Part shown: positions 5,992 to 53,681 of the stretch, piece by piece
How the letters are laid out: every line of letters begins with the position of its first letter
Numbering within the stretch: the stretch's first letter is position 1
Source of the DNA: Acidithiobacillus ferrooxidans ATCC 23270
Lineage (GTDB): Bacteria; Pseudomonadota; Gammaproteobacteria; Acidithiobacillales; Acidithiobacillaceae
Assembly: GCF_000021485.1 (NCBI RefSeq)
Contig: NC_011761.1
Coordinates: 1,084,001-1,148,000 of the forward strand
Direction: 5' to 3'
Length of the DNA stretch: 64,000 bases
Position numbers and translations under genes: made by a program
The notes under the pieces: model-generated
Database searches by the model: none
Told to the model about the DNA's origin: nothing
What the model saw: only the letters and a program-made list of their open reading frames with translations

Positions 5992-6107
5992 GATCCCTGT
6001 CTCACCAGGCCGGAGGCCTGCACACGTTCAAAAAGGGCATGGCGTCGTTTGCGCGCTTCGCGCCGACGGCAACCGTCTGACAGTATCTTTTCCGCTTCCT
6101 TGTCCAT
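5970..6107 (-). CDS. possible very small basic protein (45 aa)
   Basis: MDKEAEKILSDGCRRREARK followed by RRHALFERVQASGLV. A run of five G lies just upstream of the ATG, and the 3' end overlaps the HAD gene start. It is helical and highly charged. It fits the tight spacing of this operon but could be chance. Confidence 0.35.
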   Translation of the reverse strand: MDKEAEKILSDGCRRREARKRRHALFERVQASGLVRQGSCTKNQK

Positions 6108-6146
6108 CTGGGCCCCCGATGAGCCGGGTTGCCCCGGCCCTGATCT

Positions 6147-6422
6147 CTACGCGGCCGATTTGCTGGCTTTGAACGTCAGCACTTTGCGCTCGGGTATTTC
6201 CAACTCACCGCCCGTTTGCGGATTGCGTCCCATGCGGGCAGCGCGGTGAATCTGCTGGAAAGTGCCAAACTGGTGGATACGGACCTTGTGACCTTCCGAT
6301 ACCAGTTCCACAATGGATTCCACCAGATGCTGCACGATGTCCTCCGCCTTGCGGACTGTGGGTGCCAGGCCCGCGTCCACCAGACTTTTTGCCAGATCCT
6401 TTTTGCCGCTGATTTCACTCAT
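6147..6422 (-). CDS. HU/IHF-family nucleoid protein
   Basis: 91 residues from MSEISGKKDLAKSLVDAG; CAAGGAGGTAGTT precedes this ATG. The arm motif RIHQFGTFQQIHRAARMGRNPQTG matches the HU/IHF F-G-x-F...R-x-x-R-x-G-R-N-P-x-T-G signature, and ERKVLTFKASK matches the C terminus. It should bind and bend DNA as a dimer. The Pro at the tip of the arm, which intercalates DNA, is present. It lies in an operon with a TraR-like regulator. Confidence 0.9.
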   Translation of the reverse strand: MSEISGKKDLAKSLVDAGLAPTVRKAEDIVQHLVESIVELVSEGHKVRIHQFGTFQQIHRAARMGRNPQTGGELEIPERKVLTFKASKSAA

Positions 6423-6729
6423 AACTACCTCCTTGTTGGACCGGATCATCCCCGGTCAGATATTGGCGGATTCCGCCCCTTTGCCGACAGGTACCCGCCT
6501 TTTTCTCGCGGATGCCGGCACACACGACACAACGCACCGCTTGTACTGCCTGAACTCGTTCTGGCGGGATCACGTCGGCACAGTCGAGGCAATATCGGTT
6601 GCCCGCCACGTCCTCGTCTGGTTTTTCGCTGGCCTGCATGGCTTGCCGGGCCACCGAAACCCGCCAGGCCCGCTCCTGCTCCGCAAGGTCGGCGGCGATA
6701 TCTAATATGTCGGAAGGTAACTCGCTCAT
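6415..6729 (-). CDS. TraR/DksA-type zinc-finger protein
   Basis: 104 residues. A four-Cys finger, CLDCADVIPPERVQAVQ then RCVVC (C-x2-C-x17-C-x2-C), matches the DksA/TraR family, which binds the RNA polymerase secondary channel and alters promoter use. It is a little longer than F-plasmid TraR. It overlaps the HU gene start by 8 bp. Confidence 0.8.
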   Translation of the reverse strand: MSELPSDILDIAADLAEQERAWRVSVARQAMQASEKPDEDVAGNRYCLDCADVIPPERVQAVQAVRCVVCAGIREKKAGTCRQRGGIRQYLTGDDPVQQGGSYE

Positions 6730-7019
6730 TTTTTCAATCCTTCCGAATGCAGATTCGCCAGTTCCTGCAATTCCTGCTGAATCCTGGATTGTTCAGCATC
6801 TACAGCTTCGCGCTGCTTCTTCCAGGCACCCAAAAGATCAGAATCATCGGACTCCAGCGTGTATCCACCGCGAATGGCGCTCCGAAGGTGAGTCTCAAAA
6901 TCCATGTACGTTCCGCGAACGCGAATTTGATCTCCGCCCATCAGCGCCAGCACCGGAGTTCGCACCCCGCTACCCGGGTGAATCAAGGCTCCAATAATTT
7001 CTTGCTGCTCCACCATCAA
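6726..7019 (-). CDS. hypothetical protein, helical C terminus
   Basis: 97 residues. The N-terminal half is beta-rich (PVLALMGGDQIRVRGTY); the C-terminal half is a long charged helix with coiled-coil character (QSRIQQELQELANLHSEG). It overlaps both neighbours by 4 bp, typical of coupled operon genes. Unknown function. Confidence 0.55.
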   Translation of the reverse strand: MMVEQQEIIGALIHPGSGVRTPVLALMGGDQIRVRGTYMDFETHLRSAIRGGYTLESDDSDLLGAWKKQREAVDAEQSRIQQELQELANLHSEGLKK

Positions 7020-7528
7020 AACCCATCCTCTGGAATTTCCGTGAATTCCGGATCGGTAGGGAAGGGCGGCACTTCGTCATCCGGAAAAAGCGGCGGCTCG
7101 TTCCCGCCCGAAGGGAGCGGCGTGCCAGAACCGTCCAGCGGACAGCCTTCGTCGTCGGCTTCCTTGGCGTGAGGGAGGAAAGGAGCGAGGAATTCCTGCC
7201 CGCGCACCTGGAGATCGCTCAATTCGCTTGGAAAGATGGCTAGAATTTCTTCCCGGCCCTCGATCTCTTTCCGATAGAACTGATCTAACACGGCCAATGC
7301 CTGGGCGTAGGTCAGGCCGAAGCCACGGTTCTTATCAAAGGCGCGCACAAACGCCTGGCGCTCTTCCTTCGTTCCCATGACCGTTCTCCCTTCTTTCTGA
7401 GCTTTGAGATCATCCCGGCGCTTGATCATTGCCTTGCGCTTCGTGTCCAAGGCGCCAAGGCGTCCCTCGACCTCCGCAATGCGCTCCTCAATGGGACGCT
7501 TGACCCTGGCTACAGTAGATTCCGCCAT
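7016..7528 (-). CDS. coiled-coil protein with acidic Pro-rich tail
   Basis: 170 residues. Residues 11-45 form a coiled coil (ERIAEVEGRLGALDTKRKAM). The middle is globular (FGLTYAQALAVLDQFYRKEI) and the last 35 residues are acidic and Pro-rich. It is the first gene of the left-hand minus-strand operon, with a TTGACG/TATATT promoter in front. Function unknown. Confidence 0.6.
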   Translation of the reverse strand: MAESTVARVKRPIEERIAEVEGRLGALDTKRKAMIKRRDDLKAQKEGRTVMGTKEERQAFVRAFDKNRGFGLTYAQALAVLDQFYRKEIEGREEILAIFPSELSDLQVRGQEFLAPFLPHAKEADDEGCPLDGSGTPLPSGGNEPPLFPDDEVPPFPTDPEFTEIPEDGF

Positions 7529-7568
7529 TTTGCCCTCCTTGTTGGTGTTTACTTGCTACGATGTGCTA

Positions 7569-7577
7569 AATATACTA
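7569..7577 (-). promoter_or_regulatory. AATATACTA promoter motif before the left operon
   Basis: On the minus strand it reads TAGTATATT. A TTGACG lies 16 bp upstream of TATATT, giving a good sigma-70-like promoter for the 7528 gene. The same nine bases recur at five other gene starts in this window. Confidence 0.6.
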
Positions 7578-7624
7578 TCTTACTCTAGCTCGTCAAGCAA
7601 GTTTTGCTAGGGAGATACGGGGAA

Positions 7625-7840
7625 ATGGCGGTTGTGAAAAGAAATGCGTTCCGCGCGGCAGCAGAACATCGCGGCGAGGTGGTGCTGACATTCCCTACGG
7701 AAGATGGGCCGGAAGGCATCCTCGTTTCCGGCAGTCCGGAAAGCATCGAACGGCTCCAGTGCATTCTGGATGATTACCAAATGGCGCAGGCCATTGCTGC
7801 GGATCTGGGCGAATGGGTCGCCCAGTCCATGCTAATATAA
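7625..7840 (+). CDS. small hypothetical protein
   Basis: 71 residues from MAVVKRNAFRAAAEHRGEVV. GGGGA lies just before this ATG; a TTG at 7604 is less likely. The middle is beta-rich and the C-terminal part is helical (ESIERLQCILDDYQMAQAIA). It is divergent from the left operon and may be expressed from the same intergenic promoter region. Confidence 0.5.
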   Translation: MAVVKRNAFRAAAEHRGEVVLTFPTEDGPEGILVSGSPESIERLQCILDDYQMAQAIAADLGEWVAQSMLI

Positions 7841-7851
7841 GGAGATACATT

Positions 7852-8022
7852 ATGGAATGGAAGGTTCACAAATTGTCGGACTCACCCAAGCGACTGGCCC
7901 TGATTGGGGCTGCTACTTTTATAGTGCTCACCGTGGCGCTGCTGGCTGCCGCTCACTTCATGCCGCAAAAAACGACGGTCTCCAGTCATCCGACGCCCAT
8001 TACCGCCAAGGCGAAGCCCTGA
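7852..8022 (+). CDS. single-pass membrane protein (56 aa)
   Basis: A strong AAGGAGA lies seven bases before the ATG. A short cytoplasmic N terminus is followed by the helix LALIGAATFIVLTVALLAAA and a small Pro/Thr-rich outer tail. Function unknown; it is in line with the genes before and after it. Confidence 0.55.
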   Translation: MEWKVHKLSDSPKRLALIGAATFIVLTVALLAAAHFMPQKTTVSSHPTPITAKAKP

Positions 8023-8183
8023 CCACGCCACTCGCGCAACGCATCGTCGGCAGCGTCACCACCGCGACGATGCTGTGCGGCATGATGCTGGCATTCGACG
8101 CCGGATGCTGGCCCCTGCTGGCATTTCTGGCCCCCGTTTCCTTGGTAACTGCGGGGATCGGATTCTTCGCTGTCGATCGCTGA
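8019..8183 (+). CDS. possible two-helix membrane protein, start unclear
   Basis: The frame encodes IVGSVTTATMLCGMMLAF and PLLAFLAPVSLVTAGIGFFA, two convincing membrane helices. No ATG or GTG is found at the right place. A CTG at 8019, overlapping the preceding stop, is the best candidate. If real, it is coupled to the previous gene. Confidence 0.35.
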   Translation: MTTPLAQRIVGSVTTATMLCGMMLAFDAGCWPLLAFLAPVSLVTAGIGFFAVDR

Positions 8184-8193
8184 TCCTCGGCGA

Positions 8194-8451
8194 TCAAAAC
8201 CCGAACAGAACCAGGTAGCCCAATGTCAGGGCGAATATCCCCAATCCCAGTCCGATGCCCAGGCTTTCCCAACCTCTGGTGTACAAAGGGCGCACGGATT
8301 TTGGAACAGGCATCCGAACCGGATCCGACCATGGATCAGACTGTCCGCGCGGTGTGACCTTTTTGGCGGACGACCATTCTTCCTCCCCGGCCCGTAATCC
8401 ATTGGATATCCAGCGTCGCCCAATGGAGCCTCCTCTTCGCCAATCAAACAT
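8194..8451 (-). CDS. small C-tail membrane protein
   Basis: 85 residues, with a charged N-terminal two-thirds and one C-terminal membrane helix (GIGLGLGIFALTLGYLVLFG). It overlaps the end of the TnpB-like gene by 8 bp, so the two are cotranscribed. Unknown family. Confidence 0.5.
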   Translation of the reverse strand: MFDWRRGGSIGRRWISNGLRAGEEEWSSAKKVTPRGQSDPWSDPVRMPVPKSVRPLYTRGWESLGIGLGLGIFALTLGYLVLFGF

Positions 8452-9496
8452 CGGGTTTCACGATCTCCAGTGCCGCGCCAATCCTTCCCGCACGATAGCG
8501 CAAGAACTGGTAGAGTATCGACAAGCTCGCATAACGGCGATGCCTGGGGTTGGTTCCTGGAACCTTTACTCCGGTCTGAATGGGTTTAACACGCAGGTAG
8601 TCCACACGGTTGAAAATGTCTACGGCGATTTTCCGGTAGAAGTCCGCTCGCCAACGGTTGAATTTGCGATATACCACATTATCCTGCCCAGCGATGGATA
8701 ACCCATAAGCACGCCGGCCACGGCGAATCGCCCCAGGCGGTAGATGGTAAGTGAGGGTTTCTGTTTTACCGTTTTGGTGGACGATCCGCAGACTTGCCAC
8801 CAGTAGACTGCCATTGGGCTCCAGTTTCCAGTAGGGAGTGAGTATCCCAGTACGCTTGACCACACGCAGGTCAGGGTCTGGCAGGCGCACCGATATTCCG
8901 AAGTACCAGGTATAACCCAGCGTTTTCCCGCTCACCACGCGCGGGGTGCAAATCAGATAACAACGCTGCAGCAATCCCTCTTTCGGGATCGGGCGGTGCA
9001 GAATGAACCGGAACCGTAGTCGGGGCTTATCCTTATCCGAGTATAAAGGCATCACCATTTCCGCAACCGGATGGGGGCCATCCTCGATGATTTTGACCTG
9101 GGCGCGATACTTCTCGTCACGTTCCAGAATTTCCTCCCAAGGAATTTCTTTCGGCGTTGTTAAAAAGAAGCCCCCCAGCACACCGCTGCGCCACGGGCGC
9201 TTGCGAAAGCGAGGTTTTTCCTGTTCGCCGCCCGCTTTGTAGGACTTGCGCCGGTAGACTCCCTTGGTCCAGGACCCTACCATTTGCCGGGTAGGGGTCC
9301 AGAGGTAACGCAGATCCTGGTTGACGGATTTGCGCGCCTCCTGCACGTCGGGGGTCTGGCAGGATTGGAGATAGATATCCATCACCTTCATGGCGGCGGC
9401 GCGCGCTTCCGGCTCTTGTGACGGGTCCAGATAGGCGCGATAGCGGTAAACACGGCGCACGGGCTTTTTCCTCTTCGGTGGTAGGGTGTCCTTCAT
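8444..9496 (-). CDS. nuclease-dead TnpB/Cas12-fold protein
   Basis: About 350 residues. It has the TnpB order: an N-terminal RRVYRYRAYLDPSQ strand (compare YKYRLYPT), a WED-like stretch KPRFRKRP, RFILHRPIPKEG (compare the HRPLPEG motif), WYFGISVRLPD, then a RuvC-like region GILTPYWKLEPNGSLLVASL and a bridge helix RKFNRWRADFYRKIAVDI. The RuvC-I Asp (normally GIDxG) is replaced by Leu/Thr, the RuvC-II Glu is absent (YLRVKPI), and the protein stops at the point where RuvC-III and the zinc finger would follow. So cleavage should be lost while RNA and DNA binding may remain. The 9496 ATG has GGGAT upstream; 9511 is the alternative. There is no partner transposase and no terminal repeats, which fits a domesticated protein. 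Confidence 0.6.
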   Translation of the reverse strand: MKDTLPPKRKKPVRRVYRYRAYLDPSQEPEARAAAMKVMDIYLQSCQTPDVQEARKSVNQDLRYLWTPTRQMVGSWTKGVYRRKSYKAGGEQEKPRFRKRPWRSGVLGGFFLTTPKEIPWEEILERDEKYRAQVKIIEDGPHPVAEMVMPLYSDKDKPRLRFRFILHRPIPKEGLLQRCYLICTPRVVSGKTLGYTWYFGISVRLPDPDLRVVKRTGILTPYWKLEPNGSLLVASLRIVHQNGKTETLTYHLPPGAIRRGRRAYGLSIAGQDNVVYRKFNRWRADFYRKIAVDIFNRVDYLRVKPIQTGVKVPGTNPRHRRYASLSILYQFLRYRAGRIGAALEIVKPDV

Positions 9497-9511
9497 GTTT
9501 TCATCCCGCAT

Positions 9512-9520
9512 AATATACTA
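9512..9520 (-). promoter_or_regulatory. TAGTATATT motif abutting the TnpB-like gene
   Basis: An exact copy of the recurring nine-mer, placed immediately before the ATG at 9511. If it is a -10 element the transcript would begin around 9505, which supports the downstream start at 9496. Confidence 0.45.
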
Positions 9521-9551
9521 CACATCCCTGGTTGGACAGATGGCCTTACTA

Positions 9552-9560
9552 TAGTATATT
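9552..9560 (+). promoter_or_regulatory. TAGTATATT promoter of the transfer operon
   Basis: TTGGAC at 9532 and TATATT at 9555 are 17 bp apart, a good sigma-70-type promoter for the plus-strand transfer genes. The motif overlaps a perfect palindrome, TACTATAGTA (9547-9556), a possible operator. Confidence 0.6.
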
Positions 9561-9604
9561 AATAAGCTATAGAGAAAGTCCTCTTTTGGCGATCCCGGGG
9601 GTGG

Positions 9605-9799
9605 GTGGTGGACGAAACGGAATTTTACGATGAGGTGGCCATTCGGGTGGCGGTGGCCTTGGCACAGAACCCTGACCACTCGACATGCCTGATCAGCCAA
9701 AAGGCCAGTGACATTGCCCACGAAATGCTGCGAAACCGGCGCGAACACCTGGCGCCGGAAACGCCCGTCATCGACAGCGGTGCAGAAGCCCCGGCATGA
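9605..9799 (+). CDS. small protein coupled to the coupling-protein gene
   Basis: About 64 residues, helical, beginning with GTG (9605 or 9608). It overlaps the start of the TraD-like gene (ATGA), so it is probably its translational leader partner. No domain recognised. Small genes directly ahead of traD are common in conjugation operons. Confidence 0.5.
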   Translation: MVDETEFYDEVAIRVAVALAQNPDHSTCLISQKASDIAHEMLRNRREHLAPETPVIDSGAEAPA

Positions 9800-11655
9800 G
9801 CACAGAAGATCTGAAGCTGGGCGGGCATGAGGACACTTTGGCGCTGAGCGCTTTGGCGGCGGCCATCGCCGCCTGTGGGCCGTACATTACGCAGAGCGGG
9901 GCCGATTGGAAATTGGCCACGGGCGCACTGGCGGGATTTTCCGGTTTATACATGGCGGAACGCTTCCACAAGCGGTGGATGCATTCCGCACGGGCCTATC
10001 TGCCACAGGATCAGCAGGGGCGCGTGCAAACCAATACCAAACTGGCGTCCCACCCGGGCGCTCTCTCGGCAGACCACGACGACCGGTATCTGGAGGACGC
10101 CCTGTTGCTGGGGTACATGACCGACACCGGATTACCGTACTATCTGCCCACACTGGGCGACGCACGGCCCGGCAACGACCCGGCCAATCCACCCAACGAT
10201 CATGTCTTTATCACCGGAATGTCGGGCGTCGGCAAAACGGTTGCCGCCAGCCTCATGATGTTCCAGCAAATCCAGAAGGGCGGCGGCGTCATTTTCGCCG
10301 ATGGAAAAATCGACTCCACCAATATCGAATCCCTGTGGTACATGCTGAAGTGGTGCGGGCGCGAAGATGATCTCGTAGTGATCCACCCGGGGGATCCTTC
10401 GTTCAGCGCCAAATACAATCCGATCCTGATCGGCGACCCGGACGAAATCGCCTCGCGAATCATGTCGGCCGTGCCCAAGGCGCAGAACAGCGCAGGCGCG
10501 GACTTCTACCGGAACTCCGGCATGCAGGCCGTCTCCGCTCTGGTCGCCGCATTGCAACGCGGCGGTTACGCCTTTACGCCGGCGGATATTTCCCTTTTGT
10601 TGCTCAGCCCGACAGAGCTGGAAAAGCTTCCCAATCTACCCGGCATCCGGGGCACAGAAGAAGGCCGGGTGGTCAACCTCTTCATCAACCGGTTCCGGGT
10701 GGCCAATCGGAACGGCTCCGGCGGCAGCATCATTGATGTGAACAAGGTCAAGGAGCTGTTCGGCGGCATCGGTGGCCGCATGGGCCTGATGGGTTCTGGA
10801 AACTTTGGCAAGGTGGCCAATACGACGCGGCCCGATGTAAACCTGTTCGACTGCATCATGCAAAATAAGGTGATCTATCTACCCCTGCCCACCATGGGCA
10901 AGGAAGAAACGGCGGCCGATTTCGCCAAAATGTTCGTCGGTGACTACCGCACGGCGGTCTCCTGGATCCAGGCATTGCCCGTCCGGCTGCGACCCAATCC
11001 GCCCACATTGTTCTTTGGTGACGAGCCAGGCTCATTCCTTTCGGAAAACTGGGACCGCCTGTTCGAGCAGGCGCGGTCCGCGCGCCAGCGCCTGATGCTG
11101 AGCCCTCAGACCAAGGCCAATCTGGATGCCGTCGCCTTGACCCTGTTTCCGAAGCTGGCCGGAAACTGCGCCACCAAGCTGCTATTCCAGCAAGGTGACC
11201 AGGAAACCGCCGAATGGGCTGCGGACCTGATTGGCATGAAACTCGGGGTGTTGCGCACCTTGACGGAAAGCTCCCAGGACTCTGCCTCCGGGTCCTCGTC
11301 CGACATCGAGGGCACGGCCAGCGCCGGGGCCGGAACCGGCACCAGCGAAGGCGCGCGGCACCAGGAAATGTATCGGGTGTCTCCCGATGACCTCAAACAG
11401 CTCGGCAAGGGCGAGTGCGTGGTCTATTGGTCCGGGAAAACCCGGCACCACCTGATCGTGCCGATGATCGACTTTTCCAGCCGGTTCAAGAAATGGGCTG
11501 GATCGCCCCGCATCTTTGCCCCGGAAAACCCACGTCGGCCACGTCCTTACACGCGAGATTACGGCATTTATCAACGCCTGGATCAGGTGCTCAAGGCAGA
11601 CCAGGAATACATCAATGCCCAAACGGTCAAGAAGGAAAAAGGTGACAAAAAATGA
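9796..11655 (+). CDS. TraD-like type IV coupling protein
   Basis: 619 residues. An N-terminal hydrophobic segment (residues 15-32, LALSALAAAIAACGPYI) is followed by the ATPase: Walker A GMSGVGKT near residue 141, Walker B PTLFFGDEPG near residue 406, and FEQARSARQRLMLSPQTKA, typical of the TraD/TraG/TrwB group. A Ser/Gly-rich linker precedes a C-terminal domain. It should form a hexameric pump at the inner membrane that hands the relaxase-DNA complex to the type IV secretion channel. It sits just upstream of the relaxase gene, as in MOBH systems. Confidence 0.85.
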   Translation: MSTEDLKLGGHEDTLALSALAAAIAACGPYITQSGADWKLATGALAGFSGLYMAERFHKRWMHSARAYLPQDQQGRVQTNTKLASHPGALSADHDDRYLEDALLLGYMTDTGLPYYLPTLGDARPGNDPANPPNDHVFITGMSGVGKTVAASLMMFQQIQKGGGVIFADGKIDSTNIESLWYMLKWCGREDDLVVIHPGDPSFSAKYNPILIGDPDEIASRIMSAVPKAQNSAGADFYRNSGMQAVSALVAALQRGGYAFTPADISLLLLSPTELEKLPNLPGIRGTEEGRVVNLFINRFRVANRNGSGGSIIDVNKVKELFGGIGGRMGLMGSGNFGKVANTTRPDVNLFDCIMQNKVIYLPLPTMGKEETAADFAKMFVGDYRTAVSWIQALPVRLRPNPPTLFFGDEPGSFLSENWDRLFEQARSARQRLMLSPQTKANLDAVALTLFPKLAGNCATKLLFQQGDQETAEWAADLIGMKLGVLRTLTESSQDSASGSSSDIEGTASAGAGTGTSEGARHQEMYRVSPDDLKQLGKGECVVYWSGKTRHHLIVPMIDFSSRFKKWAGSPRIFAPENPRRPRPYTRDYGIYQRLDQVLKADQEYINAQTVKKEKGDKK

Positions 11656-12761
11656 CGCGACCTGCCCAGGAGAAAACCGATGACCGCCTCCATGTACACC
11701 ATGCCGCCGCCGCCGCCGACGGCACCCATGCAGACACCCGCACAGACCAGCATCGCGCCGCCCCCGGCACCAAACTTCACGCCGCCGACACCCCAGTCGG
11801 CGCCGTTACCCCCGCCCGGGGCAGCGACGCCGACGGCACCCATGCACGCGGTCACCGCGCCAGCGATCTCGCACCCTGTAGTTCATCCTCTCCTTTGGGG
11901 CATGGGCCCGCACGGCCTGTTTCTGGGGATGTTGGTGCTGGTGCTGATGTTCGTGCTGCTGTGGATGCCGGCGACCAGAGATCTGTTGAAAGGATTTTTT
12001 GGGACGCTTGTGATTCCGGTCTTTTCGGCGATGGTGGTCTTAATCTTTCGGCGGATGAGCAAGATGACGATCCTGATTCTGGAGAGTCACAAGATATTCC
12101 TGATCAATCTCTTTTCTTCTCACGAAAAAATCTTCCCGGACCTGCAGGACGAAGAGTAAGCCGGGAAGCACGGTATTATCTGGAAGAAATTCATGACACG
12201 GCGGGGGATACCGGAGTCGCCGCCTTTCTGTACATACGCGGCCATGTGGATAATATTTTTTCCGATGGACTGAAAACGCGCCATCCCGGGAAAGAAAAGG
12301 CGGAGTCCATACAATGGATGTTTTGTCTGGATGCCAACGCCGAGAATGAGCAGCCTCGCTTTGATGACTGTTGCGCCGTGTTGCACGCCGAAAGCTGGAT
12401 GATTCGATTGCGGACCCATCTGGAATTCTGGAAACGCCAGGTCGTTTTCAGCAACGAGATCCAGGGTTTTGTTCTGCCGGTGCCTACCGCAGTGGTCAAC
12501 ATGGCTTATGGCTGCGCTGGTGACTATGGCATTTGGGTTTGTCGGCGGCTCTGGCAATGGCCAGGCATGCCGGTTTCCCAGCTCATCGGTCATCATGGCG
12601 CGCCGCCGGAAGGGATCCTTCTGGATGTCCTGGAAAAGCTGTCCCGCAAGGGCATCATCGTCGGCGACTTTTCCGGACACTACTATTATTGCGTAGGGCA
12701 CAGCCCCGTGCGTCCGGATGGGCGCATCGACCAGCGATCATGGATTCGTTTGTGGAGGTAA
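11652..12761 (+). CDS. hypothetical protein; only the part after about 12000 is convincing
   Basis: The frame is open for 369 residues, and its ATG overlaps the coupling-protein stop (ATGA). The first ~115 residues are low-complexity His/Ala/Asp-rich and lie over the Pro-rich gene in another frame. From WDACDSGLFGDGG on it looks like a real protein, with an acidic linker and a globular domain (ARYYLEEIHDTAGDTG, MPVSQLIGHHGAPPEG). A -1 shift at the T6 run near 11996 would join it to the membrane segment of the 11680 frame as one anchored protein. Function unknown. Confidence 0.5.
   Translation: MTRPAQEKTDDRLHVHHAAAAADGTHADTRTDQHRAAPGTKLHAADTPVGAVTPARGSDADGTHARGHRASDLAPCSSSSPLGHGPARPVSGDVGAGADVRAAVDAGDQRSVERIFWDACDSGLFGDGGLNLSADEQDDDPDSGESQDIPDQSLFFSRKNLPGPAGRRVSREARYYLEEIHDTAGDTGVAAFLYIRGHVDNIFSDGLKTRHPGKEKAESIQWMFCLDANAENEQPRFDDCCAVLHAESWMIRLRTHLEFWKRQVVFSNEIQGFVLPVPTAVVNMAYGCAGDYGIWVCRRLWQWPGMPVSQLIGHHGAPPEGILLDVLEKLSRKGIIVGDFSGHYYYCVGHSPVRPDGRIDQRSWIRLWR
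11680..12159 (+). CDS. Pro-rich, membrane-anchored protein
   Basis: CCAGGAGAAAACCG precedes the ATG. Residues 8-50 are Pro/Thr/Ala-rich, then GLFLGMLVLVLMFVLLWM forms a membrane helix. After about residue 105 the frame becomes Met/Ile-rich and less convincing, and it is overlapped by the other open frame. The true product is either this 159-residue protein or a frameshift fusion with the 12000-12761 domain. Confidence 0.5.
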   Translation: MTASMYTMPPPPPTAPMQTPAQTSIAPPPAPNFTPPTPQSAPLPPPGAATPTAPMHAVTAPAISHPVVHPLLWGMGPHGLFLGMLVLVLMFVLLWMPATRDLLKGFFGTLVIPVFSAMVVLIFRRMSKMTILILESHKIFLINLFSSHEKIFPDLQDEE

Positions 12762-16605: not shown

Positions 16606-17200
16606 CGCACAAAAGAAGCTGGACGCGCGGGAATTTTACAACACGATGTCTTCATGGCGAACGCCGGACATCCTGATCAATCCCATTGGGACCCTGATTT
16701 ACCTCAAAAACGGGCAATGGATGGAAGGCCCTTGGGTACTGGCGTTCTCTCGGGCGGTTACCGATCTTTTCCCGCATCCGTTCGACCTGCGCACCACGTT
16801 ATCCCTCCCAACACACCGCGATGATGCGGAGATCTGGAATCTGGTGCTGTTGCAATCCGGGATCAGCAAACACTTTGGGAAGCCTTACGGACTATGGCCG
16901 GACAGGCCCCCGATCAACGGCATATTGAACATGGAGGGCTATGCCTTCCCGCCCAATTACCGCCCGCGCGTGTATATCGACTGCATCCCACAGCGCATGT
17001 TGGAAACCTTGCTGGACAGGCATGGGGAGATGCCCGATGTGGCCATTTACTGGCGGCCATCCGGGGCCATGATCGACACCATGCGTCGCTTCGGCATCCC
17101 ATGGAACGATCAGGAGGATGCTTTGCTGGATATCCCGGAAATGGAATTCGCTGGCCAACCGGAGGACGTGATAGCCATCATGGCGAAGCATCTCGATTGA
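16598..17200 (+). CDS. hypothetical protein
   Basis: 200 residues. A GGGGA precedes the ATG, which overlaps the previous gene by 8 bp. It is alpha/beta, with no recognised motif; VAIYWRPSGAMIDTMRRFGI is typical of its style. It is the last gene of the transfer operon, followed by a terminator. Confidence 0.6.
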   Translation: MGNAQKKLDAREFYNTMSSWRTPDILINPIGTLIYLKNGQWMEGPWVLAFSRAVTDLFPHPFDLRTTLSLPTHRDDAEIWNLVLLQSGISKHFGKPYGLWPDRPPINGILNMEGYAFPPNYRPRVYIDCIPQRMLETLLDRHGEMPDVAIYWRPSGAMIDTMRRFGIPWNDQEDALLDIPEMEFAGQPEDVIAIMAKHLD

Positions 17201-51660: not shown

Positions 51661-52290
51661 ATGAGCAAAGCATACAGCATGGGTGAATTCGCAAAACGTA
51701 TCGGTCGGTCGGCCCAGACGGTTCGACGGTGGGAGCGTGAAGGCAAATTGGTCGCCAAGCGTCTTCCATCTGGACATCGTTACTTCGACGAATCGGATGT
51801 GCGGCGCATGCTGGGCGGAGCCCCTGAAAACCGAGCCACAATCGTCTATTGCCGCGTGAGCAGTGCCGGGCAAAAAGACGATCTGGCCTCGCAGGTGGAC
51901 GCAATGGAAACCTATTGCCGTGGTGCTGGTATTGCCGTGGACGAATGGGTTCAGGAGATTGGCGGCGGCATGAACTTCAAGCGCAAGCGTTTTCTCGGCA
52001 TCCTGGACCGTATGCAACGCGGCGAAATTGGAAAACTACTGGTGGCGCACAAAGATCGACTGGTGCGATTTGGGTACGATCTCATTATGCATCTGGCTAC
52101 TGAAAATGGCTGTGAAATCGTGGTTGTTAACCAAAATTCCTTGTCTCCGCAACAGGAGATGGTTGAAGACTTGCTCTCCATTGTTCATACCTTCAGTTGC
52201 CGATTATATGGGATGCGTAAATACAAGAAACAATTGCGGGAAGATTATCCGGAATACAAGGTGGCAGAACCCAAGGAACTTTTGCAATGA
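51661..52290 (+). CDS. tnpA: IS607 TnpA serine recombinase
   Basis: 209 residues. An N-terminal MerR-like helix-turn-helix (MGEFAKRIGRSAQTVRRWER) precedes a small serine-recombinase domain, IVYCRVSSAGQKDDLASQ, with the catalytic Ser in RVSS, and KLLVAHKDRLVRFG. This order (DNA-binding domain first) is specific to IS607. Overlaps tnpB by 4 bp. Confidence 0.95.
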   Translation: MSKAYSMGEFAKRIGRSAQTVRRWEREGKLVAKRLPSGHRYFDESDVRRMLGGAPENRATIVYCRVSSAGQKDDLASQVDAMETYCRGAGIAVDEWVQEIGGGMNFKRKRFLGILDRMQRGEIGKLLVAHKDRLVRFGYDLIMHLATENGCEIVVVNQNSLSPQQEMVEDLLSIVHTFSCRLYGMRKYKKQLREDYPEYKVAEPKELLQ

Positions 52291-53681
52291 TCACCGTTAC
52301 CCGCACATTACAGGCTGATATTCCTGACGCTTTGCGGACGATCTGCAAGGCCATGGGGTATGTGCGGGCGGACATCTGGCGGCGGTATGGCGCTCTGGGA
52401 ACTATTGGCAAGTCTGCCAACGATATCCGCAAAGAAATCTCGGCGGCAGGCTTGTATTCCACCCTCCCTGTGGACGGTACCATTCGCAATGAAACCACCA
52501 AGGACATTGTAAACGACGTTCTACTGTACAAGGCGGCTGCGATGCAAAAAGTGCGCAAAGCCATTGCCGCTCGCAATGGGGATGAGGCTGAACGCAAACG
52601 ACTTTTTACGTTGCTGCGTAACGACCAATGGCTCACCGACAATTTTTTGCACCGCCAGATGCGCAAGCATTTCCGGCATGGAAAGTCATCCGTTGCCAAC
52701 CAGTTCGTGGTCCGGTCAGACAAATACGCTACGGAAGTCGTGGACGGTCATCTGGTGATTGTCATTCATATCGCGGCGAAGTACGGCGCTCCAATCCGAT
52801 TGACCACCACGTCCAGCGGCAAGAACGTCACTCTGTCGGGCAGCAACCTTCGGGTGGTGGTCAAGGATGGATTTACGGAGATCCACTATGCCGCCACCAA
52901 AGGCGATGGGCGGCTTTGTGGTGATCAAATGATGGGCATCGACAAAGGTTATACGGAAGCCTTCACGGATTCCGATGGTGTTGCGCATGGGGAAGCCTTC
53001 GGTGCGGTGCTGACGGAATATAGTGATCAGACATCAGCGACGGGTAAAGCGCGAAACAAACTCTACGCTTTGGAAAAGAAGCATCGGGAAGCGGGACGCA
53101 TCGTTAAAGCGGATCACATCAAACGCTGCAACCTCGGGCGTATCAAGATAGACGGGCGTAGAGACCATACCCGCAAGCGGTTACGCACCATCGCTTTCCA
53201 GGCGGCTCACACGATTGTGGATAAGGCGACTGTAGTGGTCTCAGAAGATTTAACCTCTCCCATTGCCAAAAAGCAGGTATGGAAGCAATACAACAGACGT
53301 ATGAGTGCATGGGCCAAAGGCGTGCTCGCCGATGCCCTGGACTCTGTATGTACGCAGCGGCAGGCGGAACATCGCTTGGTGAATGCAGCCTATACATCGC
53401 AAATGGACTCGGTGACGGGCTTGCTGGAAGGCAAGCGCGTGGCCGATAAATTTTACCGTGCGAACGGGGATGTGCTCCAGGCTGACCACAATGCTGCGTT
53501 GAACGTGCTGAGAAGGTACGAAGATACCGAGATCACTCGGTTCACTCCCCACCAGGAAGTCCGACGTATTCTTCTGGCACGATCTCCGGCGCAACTGAGC
53601 GTCAAGAGGCACGAGTTGCAGGCGAAAACCTATCAACCGTGTGCGGATAAATCCTCTGTACAGGTTTGTACAGGTTTATAG
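52287..53681 (+). CDS. tnpB: IS607 TnpB RNA-guided nuclease, zinc finger lost
   Basis: 464 residues. RuvC-I is MGIDKGYTEAFTD (Asp), RuvC-II is VVVSEDLTSP (Glu) and RuvC-III is LQADHNAALNVLRR (Asp), so the nuclease triad is present. The region between II and III, where most TnpB have two CxxC pairs, reads YTSQMDSVTGLLEGKRVADK without the Cys. TnpB uses an RNA from the element's right end to cut the empty donor site. Guide sequence here should start at 53683. Confidence 0.85.
   Translation: MITVTRTLQADIPDALRTICKAMGYVRADIWRRYGALGTIGKSANDIRKEISAAGLYSTLPVDGTIRNETTKDIVNDVLLYKAAAMQKVRKAIAARNGDEAERKRLFTLLRNDQWLTDNFLHRQMRKHFRHGKSSVANQFVVRSDKYATEVVDGHLVIVIHIAAKYGAPIRLTTTSSGKNVTLSGSNLRVVVKDGFTEIHYAATKGDGRLCGDQMMGIDKGYTEAFTDSDGVAHGEAFGAVLTEYSDQTSATGKARNKLYALEKKHREAGRIVKADHIKRCNLGRIKIDGRRDHTRKRLRTIAFQAAHTIVDKATVVVSEDLTSPIAKKQVWKQYNRRMSAWAKGVLADALDSVCTQRQAEHRLVNAAYTSQMDSVTGLLEGKRVADKFYRANGDVLQADHNAALNVLRRYEDTEITRFTPHQEVRRILLARSPAQLSVKRHELQAKTYQPCADKSSVQVCTGL

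Follow-up and report, generated by a model that had tools for sequence, protein, structure and literature searches.

A predicted nuclease-dead, Cas12m-like protein linked to conjugative transfer genes in Acidithiobacillus

The gene and its neighbours

We analysed a window of 64,000 bases from Acidithiobacillus ferrooxidans ATCC 23270 (positions 1,084,001–1,148,000 of its single 2,982,397-base chromosome), with a focus on a gene that encodes a small relative of the CRISPR (clustered regularly interspaced short palindromic repeats) effector Cas12m. This Cas12m-like open reading frame (ORF) is real and intact and extends over 8444–9511 on the minus strand (355 amino acids). A first-pass annotation of the same DNA had placed the gene at 8444–9496; the ORF is present, and its true extent is longer, since 9496 is the second in-frame ATG and thus an alternative start. 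The two motifs named at that time, HRPIPKEG and WYFGISV, are found in the ORF. The small membrane gene that had been described as coupled to it is also there: an ORF of 85 amino acids on the same strand (8194–8451) overlaps the stop of the Cas12m-like gene by eight bases and has one hydrophobic segment by hydropathy and no Pfam match.

On its other side, the Cas12m-like gene is divergent from the gene of a TraD-type coupling protein (9796–11655, plus strand, 619 amino acids; Pfam TrwB_AAD_bind and TraG-D_C). The divergent intergenic region (9512–9604) carries an A+T-rich element, TAGTATATT, beside the start codon, and a further ORF of 64 amino acids lies at 9605–9799. No tnpA ORF was seen beside the Cas12m-like gene. 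The length of 619 amino acids equals that of traD (AFE1251) in the gene list of ICEAfe1 (PMC6370655), which points to this integrative conjugative element (ICE), also treated in PMC10322971, as the host element. According to the same paper, the traD neighbours by number, AFE1250 and AFE1252, are orphans without matches in other acidithiobacilli (PMC6370655); AFE1250 may be either the Cas12m-like gene or the 64-residue ORF.

Cas12m is the closest relative of the family

The window protein has no match in Pfam or NCBIfam. With the whole family, which comprises the window protein and six homologs, at most weak matches were found in Pfam, NCBIfam and PHROGs, and a sequence search of the PDB returned no Cas12 or TnpB. 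PADLOC matched the window protein to Cas12u1 at only 7e-4 and to Cas12f at 5e-3, and across the family Cas12u1 was found in two of the seven members and Cas12f in one. The label Cas12u1 corresponds to type V-U1, whose present name is V-M (PMC11013384), that is, to Cas12m.

A reference set of Cas12m proteins was obtained through a weak tblastn match (E=8), which led to a protein of 589 amino acids on the Methylomonas plasmid pLM6. This protein is a genuine Cas12m (PADLOC Cas12u1, 7.6e-77; UnCas12m4a in the PDB, 3.7e-42), and five CRISPR repeats stand behind its gene. It recovered 16 plasmid records with Cas12m, which is often plasmid-borne. Ten of these records were retrieved, with H8, H9, H14–H16 and H18 outside the set; eight proteins were aligned, leaving out L054 (split frame) and L056 (short annotated frame only). 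The five best matches of the resulting Cas12m profile in the PDB are all Cas12m structures, among them 8pm4, which carries the label 'Transposase'. On the plasmids of Caballeronia (L059:3001–4578) and Paraburkholderia (L060:3001–4590), the Cas12m gene stands directly before repA with no array between, and only one pair of short repeats is found, about 1.6 kb further on.

Comparing profiles with hhalign, we found that the seven-member family matches Cas12m with E=1.9e-9 (probability 96%, 178 columns) and a profile of six TnpB proteins with E=0.009 (probability 4.5%). The control comparison of the Cas12m profile with that of TnpB gave 1.9e-14, mostly over a part that is absent from the Cas12m-like family. 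The predicted structures rank the relatives in the same way. For the AlphaFold model of the window protein (predicted local distance difference test, pLDDT, 70.3; predicted template modelling score, pTM, 0.48), Foldseek lists Cas12m2 first among PDB entries (8hhl with 3.8e-12, 8hhm and 8hio), followed by Cas12f, the Cas12m entry 8pm4 and TnpB. The top match in VIA-align 2 is 8hhm (Z 14.8, root-mean-square deviation 7.5, 327 aligned residues, 16% identity; model residues 16–355 against 1–544 of the chain), with Z of about 13 for Cas12f and Cas12k and 11.6 for TnpB. The same three Cas12m2 entries lead the Foldseek list for the model of the homolog from Acidithiobacillus sp. HP-2 (pLDDT 67.8, pTM 0.44). 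The two models are not fully independent, because they were built on the same seven sequences.

The protein thus belongs to the Cas12/TnpB superfamily by profile and by fold, and Cas12m (type V-M), rather than TnpB, is nearest to it. The first-pass annotation had offered two readings of the protein, a TnpB-derived repressor and a Cas12m-like silencer. The Cas12/TnpB fold is recovered by Foldseek and VIA-align alike; as Cas12m is the nearest relative by profile and Cas12m2 ranks before TnpB in the structural comparison, the derivation from TnpB is not borne out and the Cas12m half of that guess was the better one. TnpB of the IS605/IS607 type shares the overall fold, with weaker scores in both comparisons. 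The family was also rejected as TnpB proper: the RuvC D-E-D triad and the TNB zinc finger are absent in all seven members, and the window protein has no Pfam match. In a tree, the family forms a separate clade on a long branch, and its origin inside or beside Cas12m is not resolved; we therefore call it Cas12m-like rather than Cas12m.

Lost and retained parts of the protein

The full-length alignment of the family with Cas12m is colinear; family members have 340–355 residues, whereas the eight Cas12m compared have 525–664. Relative to three Cas12m proteins, the family is without 85–95 residues of REC, two pieces of the RuvC insert with 68–78 residues in total, and a C-terminal stretch of 46–82 residues that holds the zinc finger and RuvC-III. 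These parts are missing in 7/7 members, so that the full WED-REC1-REC2-RuvC-TNB architecture is not present, and all seven proteins stop right ahead of the position that the zinc finger has in Cas12. At the catalytic position of RuvC-I, the residue in Cas12m is D, N or H (our alignment; PMC11013384). None of these is found in the family, which has L or W, or T, W or Q, depending on the anchor of the alignment; in the window protein the region corresponds to codons 220–228 (RTGILTPYW; 8828–8854, minus strand). As judged from these alignments, the nuclease centre is lost: in all seven members RuvC-I is without an acid and the stop lies ahead of the zinc finger and RuvC-III, in agreement with the earlier description of the protein as nuclease-dead.

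A different region has been retained. His172-Arg173-Pro174 (codons at 8990–8998, minus strand) is invariant in the seven members, and His172-Arg173 aligns with a WED-domain pair that is invariant in 8/8 Cas12m. This pair appears to be equivalent to His269-Arg270 of Cas12m2, which contacts the scaffold of the CRISPR RNA (crRNA; PMC10442227). In addition, all seven proteins are basic (net charge +16 to +36). The family hence resembles Cas12m in profile, predicted fold, the His-Arg pair and a RuvC without cleavage centre, and differs from it in the shortened REC, RuvC insert and C-terminus, in its tie to tra genes and in that no array was found beside the gene.

Distribution, selection and linkage to the transfer genes

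The Cas12m-like family was sought in 57 relatives, in 31 genomes of the order and in 398 genomes of the phylum. The gene is present in a single copy in its own genome and occurs in 7 of the 57 relatives searched (own genome included), all of one genus. The profile search of the order recovered the same seven, and in the phylum its own genome was the sole match. The six other genomes are Proteobacteria metagenome-assembled genome YP4.bin20, A. ferrivorans DSM 22755, Acidithiobacillus sp. HP-2, A. marinus SH, A. ferruginosus CF3 and A. concretivorus ATCC 19703; their homologs are 34–42% identical to the window protein, with open frames of 344–383 amino acids. Family searches by sequence in plasmids (E 0.01), phages, viral contigs and an initial scan of genome contigs gave nothing useful. 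Cas12u1 was found in none of 369 genomes of the class (1e-14), and the Methylomonas Cas12m in none of 299 genomes of the phylum, with viral contigs likewise without result. Among the 398 phylum genomes, eight have Cas12u1 matches, all at profile positions 368–530 of 533, and the frames translated from these look like TnpB.

The gene is under purifying selection. Among the 21 pairs of the seven homologs, the ratio of nonsynonymous to synonymous substitution rates (dN/dS) is 0.07–0.15 in six close pairs and 0.26–0.28 in three pairs that involve the window gene and are near saturation; synonymous sites are saturated in the other 12, which yield no ratio. The low values in the close homologs indicate that the gene is maintained and not a wreck.

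In 6/6 relatives, the Cas12m-like gene stands before a dsbG-traL-E-K-B-V-A operon: behind it lie small genes (as read in L002, L005, L010 and L012), a dsbG-like gene and transfer genes that include traL-E-K-B-V-A. These transfer genes are homologous to ICEAfe1 genes at 969–988 kb (names from PMC6370655). The 85-residue gene of the window is likely the counterpart of the small membrane gene of the relatives, as suggested by a short motif that it has in common with the gene in A. ferrivorans (BLASTP E=0.001, a single comparison). Furthermore, TraB is found in 7 of the 31 order genomes, which are exactly the seven with the Cas12m-like gene. If common descent and linkage are neglected, such an agreement has a chance of 1 in 2.6 million, and of 1 in 19,448 when only the genus is counted. 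A second TraB (43% identity) in one of the seven genomes and a weak partial match in another are not accompanied by a second Cas12m-like gene. The dsbG-like genes are uninformative as a marker, with a match in 28/31 genomes. Taken together, dN/dS, the position before the tra operon and the shared distribution with traB agree with the earlier proposal of a domesticated gene in a transfer region.

Elements upstream of the gene

In the relatives, a TATAGTGT-like element occurs before the Cas12m-like gene and again between the gene and the tra operon, and this short common motif ties the gene to the transfer operon. At loci L011–L013, the pattern [TC]ATAGTGT is present exactly twice in about 20 kb: one copy lies upstream of the gene, the other directly behind it and ahead of the next one. 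The remaining three relative loci have a single copy, behind the gene, and also ATAGTGTATTT upstream. The first-pass annotation had credited the window gene with its own promoter motif. This point is weaker: a consensus scan found no sigma-70-like site at the gene start on the minus strand, even though TAGTATATT, the window version of the element, adjoins the ATG.

A second element, GGACA-N5-TATG, is found at L008–L013 about 90 and 1100 bases upstream of the Cas12m-like start, before leftward genes; the exact pattern occurs twice in L009–L012 and once in L008, with near-copies in L008 and L013. It seems to be unrelated to the Cas12m-like protein. In L008–L010, the upstream region has stretches of 15–27 bases in common with the other copy of this element, and since these are longer, the TATAGTGT match is not the strongest repeat upstream. 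Matches of 9–11 bases between the upstream region and the start of the tra operon in the relatives are too short to decide whether they reflect a guide. Matches of 14 bases to the intergenic region of the window, found within a 484-kb region around it (chromosome 864–1348 kb), were dropped, as 2 of 20 shuffles gave 14 or 15.

A possible role in the regulation of conjugation

We tentatively propose, with a probability of roughly 40%, that the protein is a relative of Cas12m, shortened and cleavage-dead, which has settled as a fixed component of the Tra-type (F-like) ICEs of Acidithiobacillus and regulates their conjugation. The protein would still bind RNA via its WED domain and would sit on DNA as a roadblock, both at its own promoter and where the tra operon begins, and could in this way repress or time the transfer genes. 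Such a mode would resemble the block of transcription by Cas12m, which roadblocks its targets (PMC11013384, PMC10442227), and by TldR. RNA guidance would be the natural default for a Cas12 fold, with a short or trans-encoded RNA or a loss of guidance as possible variants. In its most specific form, the proposal describes an array-free RNA-guided transcription factor of about 340 residues from the Cas12m lineage, which switches the conjugation genes of its own mobile element by means of a guide that is very short and matches the TATAGTGT-like motif common to its promoter and the tra operon; we consider this form unlikely.

TldR proteins offer a parallel in that the family, too, has an inactivated RuvC and a stable association with non-transposon genes (the same 7/31 genomes as traB), as in the TldR definition (PMC13418256). 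It departs from TldR in being nearest to Cas12m instead of TnpB, in the absent zinc finger and in that no guide was found; derivation from TnpB, which is part of the TldR definition, was rejected on the profile comparison given above. A complete V-M system, with Cas12m followed by a four-repeat array, exists on the Pelobacter propionicus plasmid pPRO1 (L055:2746–5153), which was typed MPF_F. The plasmid also carries mating-pair genes of the F type, and this combination is a possible picture of the ancestral state.

Several observations weigh against the proposed regulatory role. In ICEAfe1 itself, the gene lies beside traD, and the tra operon is about 118 kb away. The TATAGTGT element could simply be a -10 box common to both sites, and no second copy of the window's upstream element was found above chance in the 484-kb region. 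R-loop binding may have been lost together with the zinc finger and RuvC-III, the confidence of both AlphaFold models is moderate, and the tree leaves the origin of the family between a place inside and one beside Cas12m. Lastly, no guide was found. Repeat tests detected no array-like repeats beside the gene in any of the seven family loci (window and six relatives), Rfam gave nothing in window 6000–12000, and folding z-scores over 434 windows at the seven loci revealed no consistent structured RNA; the lowest mean was a mild -1.5, reached within the coding sequence between about +310 and +470. The guide RNA that the first-pass annotation expected in the flanks is thus not supported by these searches, which could miss a short or distant one. 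The same repeat tests were positive in 5/10 Cas12m loci (two clear arrays, three with paired repeats), so that the absence of arrays is moderate evidence only. A short guide could also escape the folding and repeat tests, since TldR guides down to 6 nt can work (PMC13418256).

The repeat tests varied in word length, and one 12-mer test was run uniformly on all loci and on the 484-kb region. In this region it found two arrays of degenerate repeats at 934.5–935.0 and 940.8–941.1 kb (L065:10498–10948 and 16753–17082; spacing mostly 53–60 bases), about 150 kb from the Cas12m-like gene in the same element region. These are probably the ICEAfe1 arrays that have been reported as type IV CRISPR. A third match is a single word with three copies (1,028,934–1,029,096).

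The missing guide would also suit a different reading, in which the Cas12m scaffold is kept as a guide-free binder of single-stranded DNA or RNA in conjugation, perhaps with a small membrane partner and with no sequence targeting. The loss of the zinc finger, RuvC-III and REC segment would fit such a protein, as would the strict tie to the transfer system and the small membrane gene that adjoins the Cas12m-like gene in the loci examined. However, the His-Arg pair, which in Cas12m2 touches the scaffold of the crRNA, is invariant in 7/7 members, and the gene has a promoter-like motif in common with the tra operon. We regard this alternative as unlikely, although it is the most probable of the rivals.

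A defensive role appears less likely again. Here, the protein would silence rival plasmids, elements or phages under RNA guidance, with guides borrowed from elsewhere, for instance from the two distant CRISPR arrays of the element. Cas12m is described as a silencer of plasmids and phages that acts by binding (PMC11013384), and array-like repeats with a spacing of about 60 bases do exist at 934.5–935.0 and 940.8–941.1 kb. Yet these arrays are remote, their repeats are unlike the Cas12m repeat of Methylomonas pLM6, no array adjoins the gene at any of the seven loci, and the strict tra linkage fits a transfer function better than defence. That the gene is a decaying remnant of TnpB or Cas12m is highly improbable: the absence of the C-terminal part of the superfamily and of the RuvC triad could be read as decay, but seven intact frames with about the same end point and the dN/dS of the close pairs contradict it, and for TnpB the remnant is ruled out by the profile match together with dN/dS.

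If the proposed regulatory role is true, a CRISPR-effector lineage, and not TnpB, has been co-opted for work outside defence, in conjugation, and in a protein of very small size. The family shows which parts of the Cas12 fold are dispensable while selection keeps the rest, makes RNA guidance without zinc finger and RuvC-III testable, and gives conjugation research a conserved, unstudied partner of Tra-type elements. The accessible literature on Acidithiobacillus with Cas12 or TnpB, on AFE1250 and AFE1249, and on exapted or array-free Cas12m contained no description of the family. The 2025 CRISPR classification describes repeated exaptation and independent losses of RuvC (PMC12669027), and the accessible part of a paper on 'F. 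caldus' reports Cas12f with no mention of the Cas12m-like family (PMC12375680).

Other TnpB and IscB-like genes

At 51661–53681 of the window, separate from the Cas12m-like gene, an ORF for a MerR-headed serine recombinase is followed by a TnpB of 464 amino acids with a Cas12f1-like TNB domain, presumably an IS607-type pair. Just past the window (L041:78–1202), a TnpB frame of 374 amino acids has a match in the zinc-finger region and an apparently shortened N-terminus. Inside the tra operon of A. ferrivorans DSM 22755 (L010:5527–6897) lies a gene of 456 amino acids that we take to be IscB-like; in ICEAfe1, an ORF at 1,179,203–1,180,618 has 75% identity to it.
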